From the NCBI GenBank assembly GCA_946539475.1, contig CAMNHM010000046.1, positions 1 to 17,808 on the forward strand: a stretch of 17,808 bases of DNA. Direction: 5' to 3'. The DNA comes from an uncultured Prevotellaceae bacterium. GTDB lineage: Bacteria > Bacteroidota > Bacteroidia > Bacteroidales > Bacteroidaceae. Below, piece after piece: positions 2,656 through 5,735 of this stretch. The notes below the pieces were generated by a model that saw only the letters and a program-made list of their open reading frames with translations, had not been told where the DNA came from and searched no databases. Positions within the stretch are counted from its first letter, which is position 1. The number at the start of each line of letters is the position of its first letter. The translations under genes were made by a program, and so were the position numbers.

Positions 2656-3519
2656 ATGAGACAACTGAAGATTAACAAGTCGATAACGAATCGGGAGAGC
2701 GAAGCTCTCGACAAGTATCTGCAAGAAATAAGCAAGGAAGAGCTCATCAGCGTGGAGGAAGAGGTGGAGCTGGCACAGCGCATCAAGAAAGGCGACCGCA
2801 GGGCACTGGACCGTCTGACACGCGCCAACCTGAGGTTTGTCGTCTCTGTTGCCAAGCAGTACCAAAACCAGGGCCTCTCCCTCGCCGACCTCATCAACGA
2901 GGGCAACGTGGGCCTTATCAAGGCCGCTGAGAAGTTCGACGAGACGCGCGGTTTCAAGTTCATCTCGTATGCCGTCTGGTGGATTCGTCAGAGCATTCTG
3001 CAGGCCATCGCCGACCAGAGCCGCGTCGTTCGCCTGCCGCTCAACCAGGTGAGCTCGCTGAACAAGATCTACCGTGCGATGAACAAGTTTGAGCAGGAGA
3101 ACGAGCGCCGTCCGTCTGTCGACGAGCTCTCGGAGAACGTTGACTTGCCTCACGAGAAGATCGACGAGGCGATGAGTGCCAACGCGCGCCATGTGTCGGT
3201 CGACGCGCCGTTGGGTGACGATGAGGGCAATTCGCTGCTCGATGTGCTTGTCAACGACAATGCCCCAATGGCCGACCGAAAGCTCGTGGCTGAATCGCTG
3301 GAGGCAGAGGTTGCTCAGGCGCTGAAGATACTCAACGAGCGCGAGCGCAACATCGTGAAGTGCTACTTCGGCATCGGCGTGCAGGAGATGACGCTCGACG
3401 AGATTGGCATGAAGTTCGGACTCACGCGTGAGCGTGTGCGACAGATCAAGGAGAAAGCCCTCCGCCGTCTGCGCACGAACAACAGGTACACCATTTTGAA
3501 AGCATATTTAGGACAATGA
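2656..3519 (+). CDS. rpoD: Primary RNA polymerase sigma factor (sigma-70, Bacteroidota type)
   Basis: The protein has 287 residues, the short form without region 1.1 that is usual in Bacteroidota. Region 1.2 is near residues 14-40. Region 2 runs to about 118 and includes [16 protein letters not shown] (99-114), the strand-opening and -10 (here -7) recognition helix. Region 3 spans about 125-200, and region 4.2 has the helix-turn-helix [20 protein letters not shown] (246-265). The start ATG follows the promoter element by about 30 bases. The stop overlaps the next gene in an ATGA arrangement (3516-3519), so translational coupling is likely. As the housekeeping sigma it should read the TAnnTTTG elements noted in this window. 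Confidence 0.97.
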
Positions 3520-4019
3520 AAAAACGAATCATATCGGCCTTGTGCCTGCTCCTGTTACTTGGAGCTTGTCTCACAACGGCTAACGCACGTAAGCAACCAG
3601 TGCCACACATGTACATGTTTGGCTTCTCGGCGTCGTTCACCGACACTATCGTCTACTTCACCAACATCCAGCAGCTCGACAGCGTCTGGGTGGAGTCGAA
3701 AAACAACTTCCTGCAGGAGCGCGAGTCCTACTCCCAGCAGCTGCGCAGCTATCTGGATCAAAAGCATCAGATGCCCCATCGCACCTGCGTCGTCTTCTAC
3801 AATCAGAAGCGCGATAAGCTCGAGAAGGCTTACCAGAAGATGATGCGCCTCTACACGAAGTCGAAGGACGGGCTACAGCACTTTGACGTGCGCCATCTCG
3901 ACGACAAAAGCTTCCATTTCAACGTAATCGACCTCTCTGAGTACGTCGCTCAGGAGGAGGCAGCTGAAGCGGCTGATCGAGCCGCACGGGCAGCGGCAAC
4001 GACCGTAGAGGAGGAATAG
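3516..4019 (+). CDS. Small exported protein, possible lipoprotein, unknown function
   Basis: This 167-residue protein starts at an ATG that overlaps the rpoD stop by 4 bases. The N-terminus is a clear export signal: positive residues 2-4, hydrophobic core 5-15, then LLGAC with Cys at 18, which loosely fits a lipobox. Cleavage by signal peptidase I after ANA (24) is the alternative. The mature part is mixed polar with many Tyr, Gln and Lys, no recognised domain, and one internal Cys (TCVVFYNQ). The last about 25 residues are Ala/Glu-rich and probably helical or disordered. I do not recognise the family. Its position between rpoD and the kinase-like gene suggests shared expression, but gives no function. 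Confidence 0.85.
4009..4014 (+). promoter_or_regulatory. Shine-Dalgarno-like site for the kinase-like gene
   Basis: AGGAGG lies 8 bases before the GTG at 4023 and supports that rare start codon. The same bases encode the Glu-Glu tail of the preceding protein, so the match could be partly coincidental in a phylum where such sites are uncommon. Confidence 0.5.
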
Positions 4020-4022
4020 CGC

Positions 4023-4985
4023 GTGGAGAGAGGACGTAGCCGATATTTCTGCGTGGCCGGCCATCGCTTCTGTCTGTTGCTCCGCGATGAGACGGTCAAC
4101 TCAATGAGGCTCTTGCCGTCGTTTGCGAATTTTGAGGTGGATGGTGGCGATGTCTCCGAGGCTGCTGCTAGCAAGAACTTAGAGGCAGAGCGTGGCGAGC
4201 TGCTCTTCAAGCTCATCGTCGACGATACGCTGAGCCCCGCTCCGCAGCGACGTCTGGTGAGAAAATTCGACACGGGTAACGGCGACACCATCGTCTACCA
4301 ACTGCCCGACGGCGGCTATCAGTACATCATCCGCGACATCTTGGGCAACGACTGCTGCCTGCTCATCGCCGACAAGAGCTTCGGGCATTGTCAGTGTGCA
4401 CTGCACGGCGACTGGACGATGCGTTCCTTCGGACTTAACAATGCCCTGATGCTCGTCTATGCTTTTGCGGGCTCTTATCGCCAGACACTGCTCATTCATG
4501 CTTCGGCAACGATGCTCCCCCCCCCCTCCGATGGCGGGGAACCTCTGGGATTTCCCTTCATCGCCAGCAGCGGTACGGGCAAGAGCACACATACATCGCT
4601 CTGGCTGCGCTATGTCGAAGGTGCTGAGTTGCTCAACGACGACAATCCCATCCTGCGCATTGAGCCCGAGGGCGTCTACATCTACGGATCGCCCTGGAGC
4701 GGAAAGACGCCCTGCTATCGCAACCGTCGCGCGCGTCTGGCTGCCGTTACGCGTATCGAGCGTGCTCCCTCCAACAGCATCGAGCGGCAGAAGCCAGTGG
4801 CAGCCTTCGCATCGCTTTTGCCTGCCTGCTCCAGCATGAAGTGGGACGAAGCGATTTACCGCAATCTCTGCGACGCTATCACCCATATCGTAGAATCGAC
4901 ACCCATCTATACACTCTACTGCCTTCCCGACGAGGGAGCAGCCAGATTGTCATTCGAGACACTTGCTGAACGATGGATCAAGTGA
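4023..4985 (+). CDS. HPr kinase-like / PEP carboxykinase-fold ATPase, with a C10 tract before the P-loop
   Basis: The 320-residue protein starts at GTG; an in-frame TAG lies two codons upstream, and the next Met is residue 28. The N-terminal about 150 residues form a variable domain. The P-loop is ASSGTGKST (181-189, Lys 187), then LLNDDNPI with the D206-D207 pair, and YGSPWSGKTPCYRN, a signature of HPr-kinase-like proteins associated with peptide modification. These HPrK C-terminal domain relatives include kinases that phosphorylate lasso-peptide precursors. There is no HPr-sensing N-terminal domain as in Firmicutes HprK, so HPr is an unlikely substrate. Ten consecutive C (4517-4526) encode prolines 166-168 in a loop before the P-loop, a possible slippage site. 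The gene overlaps the next by up to 13 bases. Substrate is unknown. Confidence 0.85.
   Translation: MERGRSRYFCVAGHRFCLLLRDETVNSMRLLPSFANFEVDGGDVSEAAASKNLEAERGELLFKLIVDDTLSPAPQRRLVRKFDTGNGDTIVYQLPDGGYQYIIRDILGNDCCLLIADKSFGHCQCALHGDWTMRSFGLNNALMLVYAFAGSYRQTLLIHASATMLPPPSDGGEPLGFPFIASSGTGKSTHTSLWLRYVEGAELLNDDNPILRIEPEGVYIYGSPWSGKTPCYRNRRARLAAVTRIERAPSNSIERQKPVAAFASLLPACSSMKWDEAIYRNLCDAITHIVESTPIYTLYCLPDEGAARLSFETLAERWIK
4517..4526 (+). repeat. Homopolymeric C10 tract inside the kinase-like gene
   Basis: Ten C in a row, the longest homopolymer noticed in the window. With ten C the frame is open. Loss of one C would move reading into a frame that ends at 4839, and gain of one would end at the TGA at 4625-4627. 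Both lose the P-loop, which begins about 35 bases downstream. Confidence 0.9.
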
Positions 4986-5467
4986 TGTATTTCCCCAACG
5001 ACGTGTTCATACCTTTCGTGCTCGACGAGCTGCGACAGGTGCCCGACAAGACGGCGGTCATCAACCTTCGTGGCAACAGCATGCGCCCATTCCTGAAGAA
5101 CGAGCGCGACAAAGCGATACTTGCCCTCCTGAAGGAGCCCTGCAAAAAAGGCGACGCCGTACTGGCTGAGGTGTCGCCGAAGCATTTCGTGCTGCACCGC
5201 ATAGTTAACATTGACGGTGACAATGTCACCCTTCGGGGCGACGGCAACCTTGGCGACGAGCACTGCCACCTGGACGACATCCGGGCGAAAGCCATCGGTT
5301 TCCTCCGTAAAGGTCGCACCACGCCCGACCTCACCAGTGGCAGCAAATGGCGCACATATTCCTGGATATGGACACGCCTCTATCCGGTACGCCGCTATCT
5401 GCTGTTCGCACTTCATCCGCATATTCCACAATTCCTAAAATCACATAATAAAAAGAATGAAGACTAA
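4973..5467 (+). CDS. S24/S26-family peptidase-like protein (signal peptidase I/LexA fold)
   Basis: This 164-residue protein starts at ATG 4973 or, equally plausibly, ATG 4985, which shares bases with the preceding TGA stop. GNSMRPFL places a candidate nucleophile at Ser 36, as in the SM motif of S24/S26 peptidases. VLHRIV places His 75 where Sec11-type signal peptidases have their general base instead of Lys. LRGDGN (87-92) is the conserved glycine/aspartate motif that follows in S26 proteins. Unlike true signal peptidases there is no N-terminal membrane segment. The C-terminal part (about 122-155) is Trp/Tyr/Arg-rich and hydrophobic and may attach to the membrane. Between a kinase-like and a PqqD-like gene, it may cut a modified peptide; that role is inference. 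Confidence 0.8.
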   Translation: MDQVMYFPNDVFIPFVLDELRQVPDKTAVINLRGNSMRPFLKNERDKAILALLKEPCKKGDAVLAEVSPKHFVLHRIVNIDGDNVTLRGDGNLGDEHCHLDDIRAKAIGFLRKGRTTPDLTSGSKWRTYSWIWTRLYPVRRYLLFALHPHIPQFLKSHNKKNED

Positions 5468-5735
5468 AACCGGATTCAACCTCCGCACCGTCTGCGGAGA
5501 GAATATCATCGTTGCTGAAGGAATCGACAACATCGACTTCAGCCGTATCATAAGTTTGAACGAGAGTGCTGCTTTCCTTTGGAAGAGCATACAAGGGAAA
5601 GACTTTAACCTGAATTCGCTAACCCAGTTACTGACTGACGAGTATGATGTCGACGCTGAAACTGCTCGTCGTGATGTTGACCAGCTTGTTGCCCGCTGGA
5701 AGGAAGCCGGACTAATTGAATCAGAGGAGGACTAG
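5457..5735 (+). CDS. PqqD family protein (peptide-binding, RRE-like)
   Basis: The protein has 92 residues, the size of stand-alone PqqD proteins. The pattern fits the family: an N-terminal beta part, then LNESAAFLW (54-62 region of the fold's first helix), a middle helix DFNLNSLTQLLTDEYDVD, and a last helix with a GLIE ending near the C-terminus. PqqD folds as a winged helix; in PQQ and many RiPP pathways it binds the leader of a precursor peptide and presents it to the modifying enzyme. The start overlaps the preceding gene by 11 bases. No PqqE-like radical SAM gene is nearby, so PQQ synthesis is not supported. Its partner peptide is unknown. Confidence 0.85.
   Translation: MKTKTGFNLRTVCGENIIVAEGIDNIDFSRIISLNESAAFLWKSIQGKDFNLNSLTQLLTDEYDVDAETARRDVDQLVARWKEAGLIESEED

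Follow-up and report, generated by a model that had tools for sequence, protein, structure and literature searches.

Organization of the locus

The window analysed here, a stretch of 17,808 nucleotides, is a Prevotellaceae-like piece of chromosome whose nearest loci carry Prevotellaceae names; Prevotella belongs to the Bacteroidota. It encodes a kinase, a S24/S26-type peptidase and a PqqD-family protein in three ORFs that overlap in series, all on the + strand (Table 1). The other window genes are ordinary by Pfam, encoding a HtrA-type protease, sigma factor, DPP4, GH88, GHMP kinase, DnaB, Trp/Tyr-tRNA synthetase, esterase, PQQ-repeat protein and patatin. Among the 15 window genes scanned, there is no Pfam match to an NTP transferase and no match to an ABC or MsbA-like exporter, and neither a lasso cyclase nor a B2 peptidase is found.

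Table 1. Positions in the window of the cassette genes and of the residues discussed in the text, with conservation among homologues
Feature	Position	Strand	Remarks
HprK/PEPCK-fold kinase gene	4023..4985	+	320 aa, GTG start, LppK-like
S24/S26-type serine peptidase gene	4973..5467	+	164 aa, LppS/SipW-like
PqqD-family discrete RiPP recognition element (RRE) gene	5457..5735	+	92 aa, LppB-like, PF05402
Kinase P-loop ASSGTGKST, residues 181-189	4563..4589	+	G184-T189 invariant in 81/81
Kinase Asp206-Asp207	4638..4643	+	conserved in 81/81
Peptidase Ser36 in GNSMRPF, predicted nucleophile	5078..5080	+	81/81
Peptidase His75, predicted general base	5195..5197	+	81/81
Peptidase Asp90, candidate triad acid, assignment uncertain	5240..5242	+	81/81
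RRE Asn35, putative equivalent of LppB N33	5559..5561	+	78/78; equivalence from spacing and alignment
RRE Asp73, putative equivalent of LppB D70	5673..5675	+	78/78; equivalence from spacing and alignment

The kinase has no Pfam match; its structure is predicted with confidence to be a PEPCK/HPrK fold, and the precomputed domain PF27840 is present on many of its relatives. The best 50 Foldseek matches are all PEPCKs, with HPr kinase appearing only on a second look. The P-loop is intact and invariant, as is Asp206-Asp207, the HPrK DD pair. The peptidase gives only sub-threshold S24/S26 sequence matches, and its AF2 model resembles LexA-type and signal peptidase folds, with the Ser loop poorly modelled. 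A strongly hydrophobic stretch is absent (best 19-residue mean 0.82). The spacing of 39 between Ser36 and His75 is that between S29 and H68 in the peptidase LppS (see below). Asp90 and Asp102 (Asn in 9/81) are both candidates for the triad acid, neither of which reproduces the LppS H68-D93 spacing of 25. The 92-aa protein matches PqqD (PF05402, E 2.7e-18; 66.5 bits against a cut-off of 23.4) and, judged by its sequence, is an RRE. The first-pass annotation, made from the sequence alone, had described a series of overlapping genes for a HPrK-fold ATPase with intact P-loop and DD pair, an S26-type protein with Ser36/His75 and a PqqD-like protein. The layout and the first assignment are confirmed, the second is compatible with structure prediction and with the conservation of both residues, and the third is borne out by Pfam.

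Conservation of the cassette

Searching with the kinase profile alone, with one genome per species, yields 334 relatives, and the 80 best were carried forward. One of the 80 is titled 'bacterium UBA3734', and the rest are titled Prevotellaceae or a genus therein. Among these best 80 of 334, all three genes are found in 77 loci, in the same order and strand in 76. PqqD is missing from L044, L070 and L075, where a translated search reveals no clear remnant, and in genome G317 a distance of 38 kb separates PqqD from the paired kinase and peptidase genes (L177, L178). In the GTDB family of P. communis (161 genomes, with kinase status assigned at E up to 0.001 and 10 of the 30 negatives assigned as the complement), the kinase is present in 131 genomes, and PqqD in 130 of these 131 compared to 15 of the 30 kinase-negative genomes. 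In the class set of 197 genomes, 61 have PqqD. The co-occurrence of the three families in gene neighbourhoods, proposed earlier as a check on the cassette, therefore holds.

The cassette occupies a stable position, since a rpoD family gene lies upstream in 72/81 loci. Between rpoD and the kinase, a 167-aa lipoprotein-like gene (window 3516-4019) is present in 68/81 loci. Among 38 further loci it recurs only in L173 and L177, both rpoD-adjacent, and it is therefore read as rpoD synteny and rejected as a part of the cassette. DPP4 is likewise rejected as a fourth, downstream member, its family being present in only 9/81 loci.

Relation to linear polyphosphorylated peptides and other systems

Linear polyphosphorylated peptides (LPPs) are a RiPP family published in 2026, represented by the lppA-K-B-S-D-N clusters of Paenibacillus alginolyticus (PMC13381572). 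The family is defined by five components: a HprK kinase, a discrete RRE, a SipW-like peptidase, an NTP transferase and a MsbA-like exporter. LppK phosphorylates Ser3 of the core, and the leader is cut off by LppS (S29, H68, D93), aided by the RRE LppB. The leader YxxP is held by two LppB residues: N33 fixes the Pro kink, and D70 hydrogen-bonds the Tyr. The precursors carry the motif YxxPxVLxHQxIxFETxxS; in LppA the Tyr is at -16 and the Ser at 3, placing the phosphosite at position 19 counting Tyr as 1. Each cluster has one to three precursors, and the biological role of the family is given as unknown. The clusters are patchy in Bacilli, are also found in capsule loci, and are described as 'predominantly' from Bacillota genomes in one section and as 'restricted' to Bacillota in the discussion.

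The window cassette shares with LPP clusters a HprK-like kinase, a PqqD-type RRE with N33/D70 equivalents and a SipW-like Ser/His peptidase. The dispersed precursor-like ORFs described below have leaders with YxxP, followed by a Ser at almost the LPP distance, and the fuller clusters of related genomes supply the two other parts, an NTP transferase and a gene resembling an ABC exporter. The present system differs in occurring in Bacteroidota rather than Bacillota, in having many dispersed precursors per genome adjoining genes for large secreted proteins, in leaders without HQxIxFET, and in being widespread and rpoD-linked rather than patchy. The window itself is an LPP variant and not a canonical cluster, because the NTP transferase, the exporter and a precursor with the full motif are all missing locally, the dispersed ORFs sharing YxxP and Ser only.

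Lasso peptide pathways of the paeninodin/pseudomycoidin type also combine a HprK-like kinase, a discrete RRE and NTP transferase tailoring (PMC7533575), whereas the window has no B2 peptidase or cyclase. The B2 family (PF13471) is over cut-off in only 2/161 genomes (9/161 at E up to 0.001), and in both of these the B2 gene lies at a separate locus with a Trp-type leader. A lasso pathway for the cassette is rejected on the PF13471 counts and the window Pfam matches, and the lasso analogy of the first-pass annotation needs correcting: it is the LPP family that the cassette matches closely.

Two lasso-like B2 loci, L169 and L174, come from the same GTDB family, from relatives of Prevotella. Their leaders are of the Trp type (WVTPEI and WSTPKV, respectively), and their RREs have Glu at the position of the Tyr-binding Asp, LppB D70. 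Of 15 non-B2 RREs picked by hand, 14 have Asp here and one, in L183, has Tyr; the RRE of L182, which has a cyclase-like neighbour, has Asp. This Glu/Asp split agrees with the discrimination described for Bacillota (PMC13381572).

Prochlorosins (ProcM/SyncM) resemble the present system in that one promiscuous enzyme set serves many precursors per genome; they differ in their lanthipeptide chemistry, and no sequence relation is claimed. Another candidate is the HPr-rel-A system (TIGR04352/TIGR04353), which pairs a HprK-related kinase with a PqqD partner, a likeness to the cassette. It is rejected: the window PqqD scores 17.8 against a TIGR04353 cut-off of 35, the window kinase has no TIGR04352 match, and relatives score at most 20.9 against a cut-off of 200. 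The PqqD of PQQ biosynthesis is rejected as well (TIGR03859, 18.5 against 46). No report of the system in Bacteroidota was found in the openly licensed PMC literature; in their accessible portions, a survey of Bacteroidales RiPPs (PMC10352776) leaves HPr and signal peptidase unmentioned, and a survey of rumen bacteriocins (PMC13289728) has nothing on such a system.

Fuller clusters in related genomes

In other genomes of the P. communis family and its class, the cassette families are found with a PF14907 NTP transferase (NTP5; E 6.5e-37 in L168) and an ABC protein; the two ABC proteins that were compared with NCBIfam (L168, L164) are MsbA-like. The gene order is NTP5-HprK-S26-PqqD-ABC in L179, HprK-S26-PqqD-NTP5-ABC in L180 and L181, PqqD-NTP5-ABC-HprK-S26 in L162, L163 and L184, and S26-PqqD-NTP5-ABC-HprK, followed by polysaccharide export genes, in L168. 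The NTP transferase is linked to the cassette families in L168 and L179-L183 and the ABC gene accompanies them in L162, L168 and L179-L184; all five LPP-cluster parts are together in L162, L168, L179-L182 and L184.

Two further arrangements were seen. In L165 (8160-9371, - strand), the HprK-like kinase and S26 peptidase are fused in one 403-aa ORF. In L182 (2848-10440, - strand), genes for ABC, NTP5, S26 and PqqD are clustered with those for the kinase, a flippase and a protein resembling Asn_synthase (PF00733, E 8e-8). PF13471 matches occur in nine genomes, and G288, which carries this locus, is not one of them; the Asn_synthase-like protein is possibly a lasso-type cyclase working with a S26 leader peptidase.

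A PqqD-NTP5-HprK variant without the ABC gene is present in all nine of the loci L150-L158, inside polysaccharide clusters. Wza/Wzc-like genes are next to it in 8/9 (L154 ends too soon), and L150 alone shows a peptidase gene, 7 kb further along. Together with L168 and with the LPP clusters in capsule loci (PMC13381572), this arrangement would fit a role in exopolysaccharide assembly, in which a sugar or lipid carrier is the substrate of both kinase and NTP transferase and the RRE is only a protein adaptor. We consider this quite improbable as the function of the cassette, given that no polysaccharide-export genes adjoin the window-type cassette and that a precursor-like ORF is present in 7/9 of the polysaccharide-linked loci, although five of these supplied rows of the leader profile A5 described below. 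The exopolysaccharide reading and the LPP-like reading are compatible, not exclusive.

The absence of precursor, NTP transferase and exporter from the window could also mean that the cassette is a decayed lasso or LPP cluster that has lost all three. We regard such a remnant as very improbable: the catalytic and binding residues are invariant in 78-81 homologues, PF14907 is kept in 106/131 kinase-positive compared to 9/30 kinase-negative genomes, and there are many precursors per genome.

Precursor-like small ORFs

Short ORFs were searched for the RRE-binding motif, giving a clear family of small ORFs beside several fuller clusters, e.g. MEMEKFYVAPEVEVLEVEIEKGFAGSDPGF... (L160) and MKENSIETYEAPKVEIIEVEVEKGFATSGGG... 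(L162). Two profiles were used. A4 (16 sequences) served for candidate collection in 16 genomes at E up to 1, a level reachable by chance; five of these 16 genomes had themselves given A4 rows, and the matches are candidates only. A5, a leader profile of 33 sequences, was used for the wider tests. A Ser-containing regular expression was dropped, its matches being mostly chance (184, against 103 on reversed sequence).

A pattern ORF was obtained from 105 of the loci L190-L302 (97 distinct), and with four wrong and one (L211) replaced, 94 distinct precursor-like ORFs result. Their median length is 55.5 aa, and the leader Tyr is most often residue 5 (48 of 94). Counting the leader Tyr as 1, 89/94 have a Ser at position 19-21, compared with position 19 in LppA, a frequency that is partly selected because the A5 profile includes the Ser. 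A Trp occurs within the last 20 residues in 70/94. Scans of 10 and of 7 such ORFs against Pfam or NCBIfam give no match.

The precursor profile has no match in the window (best E 2.5), and a motif-bearing precursor is matched in only 2/80 cassette loci (L054, E 4e-10; L072, E 0.14), with no enrichment near window-type cassettes. The conserved short ORFs for which the first-pass annotation proposed a search near other copies are present beside several fuller clusters and largely missing from the cassette loci themselves.

Some genomes show distinctive arrangements. In G172 (L314, 10320-10780, - strand), four tandem mini-precursors of 25-27 aa, each MKKKYEKPEVIKVDLDSEIS.LM plus a few residues, lie beside PqqD, kinase and S26 genes; their core is only a few residues. 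In G344 (C1:1797306-1848319), nine precursor-like ORFs are spread over about 51 kb around PqqD, NTP5, ABC, kinase and S26 genes, several of them each upstream of a large lipoprotein-like gene.

Gene neighbours of the precursors

In P. communis (G001) and G356, 11 of 12 precursors directly follow a same-strand gene of at least 700 codons, compared to 16/682 control genes (p 3.7e-16); 12 of the 15 reported precursors were read in context, and the gap allowed was 250 nt in the test and 150 in the control, with all 11 actual gaps below 70 nt. Eight of the large upstream proteins were scanned (seven from G001/G356 and one from G262, L318): four contain InlB/List-Bact repeats above cut-off, one contains Ig-like and BACON domains, one has only a sub-threshold Calx-beta match, and two have no match. 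The mark holds only in these two genomes, read with full flanks; as a general precursor mark it is rejected, with 54/94 against 283/678 for ORFs of at least 250 aa, with short flanks.

Downstream, a lipobox protein is encoded within 250 nt of the precursor in 28/94 cases (rough control, 55/1087 cassette-locus genes), and is rejected as a precursor mark at this frequency. Of ten downstream proteins scanned, fimbrillin-like PF13149 is above cut-off in three and below it in one.

Co-occurrence of precursors and kinase

At the family level, A5 was run against all 30 kinase-negative and 40 hand-picked kinase-positive genomes of the 161, none of which gave A5 rows. At E up to 0.1, matches are found in 40/40 kinase-positive genomes (1-16 each) compared to 6/30 kinase-negative genomes (Fisher p 1.7e-13). 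Only 1 of the 15 PqqD-positive, kinase-negative genomes has a match, so that the ORFs are associated with the kinase rather than with PqqD in general. Of the six exceptions, five encode an NTP transferase and may be incompletely assembled; the sixth, G334, gives seven matches, and HprK, PqqD and PF14907 were not found in it.

At the class level (197 genomes, E up to 0.01), the seven positive genomes are all among the 11 with kinase (p 1.6e-10), four of the seven having given A5 rows; the positives that had not (G042, G170, G197) amount to 3/7 kinase-positive genomes compared to 0/186 (p 3e-5). The kinase-positive genomes without a match are G013, G119, G172 and G184; G172 has the four short look-alikes beside PqqD, and the divergent G013, G119 and G184 have no convincing precursor near the kinase. 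All 20 searched genomes with window-type cassettes contain 4-27 matches each at E up to 0.1 (G001 and G003 among them gave A5 rows), and G356, the nearest relative of the window (L001), contains six. These co-occurrence tests include many draft assemblies and are confounded by shared ancestry.

The first-pass annotation had read the three genes as pointing to peptide modification or signalling, with a substrate that is located elsewhere or is of a new type. This reading is supported by the dispersed YxxP-leader ORFs that track the kinase, with signalling retained as the minor option. In the signalling version, the cassette would modify or sense one protein partner, in the style of HPrK and HPr, and the YxxP ORFs would have no connection with it, being peptides with regulatory or structural functions in operons for surface proteins. 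This would account for a cassette that is rpoD-linked and widespread, unlike the patchy LPP clusters of Bacilli, for the 78/80 cassette loci without a motif-bearing precursor, and for the tight linkage of precursors to large secreted proteins. We nevertheless consider it unlikely in view of the 40/40 against 6/30 co-occurrence, the precursors beside several full clusters, the retention of the Tyr-binding RRE residues, and a leader plan that matches LppA.

Proposed pathway

We favor the interpretation, at a probability of roughly 0.7, that the cassette is the enzyme core of a trans-acting LPP-like RiPP pathway serving many precursors. The substrate missing from the locus appears to be encoded in trans by the dispersed small-ORF family. 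In the proposed pathway, the PqqD protein would bind, in the cytosol, small precursors from other parts of the genome by their YxxP leader, and the HprK-like kinase would add one or more phosphates to a conserved Ser that lies 19-21 positions from the Tyr of the leader. Docked on the RRE, the S26 peptidase would then cleave immediately ahead of this Ser, at about [LMI]|AxS. The unlinked PF14907 NTP transferase probably elaborates the phosphopeptide, which would then be exported. Judging from the gene neighbours of the precursors alone, the exported peptide may act at the cell surface with the large secreted proteins encoded beside it.

Implications for Prevotella and relatives

An extension of this pathway, to which we give somewhat less than even odds, is a genome-wide phospho-RiPP system in Prevotella and its relatives, in which a single widespread cassette, linked to rpoD, matures a large number of scattered precursors, and each precursor is encoded together with a large secreted or fimbrillin-like protein of its own. 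RiPP mining by cluster, which expects the precursor beside the enzymes, would miss such a system. Its existence would explain a class of small ORFs without Pfam or NCBIfam match, and a widespread trans-acting version in Prevotellaceae would carry LPP chemistry into another phylum. The consistent linkage to large secreted proteins would give a first functional handle on LPPs. If the genome-wide system is real, a modified peptide would routinely accompany the display of surface proteins in a genus of major importance in gut and rumen.
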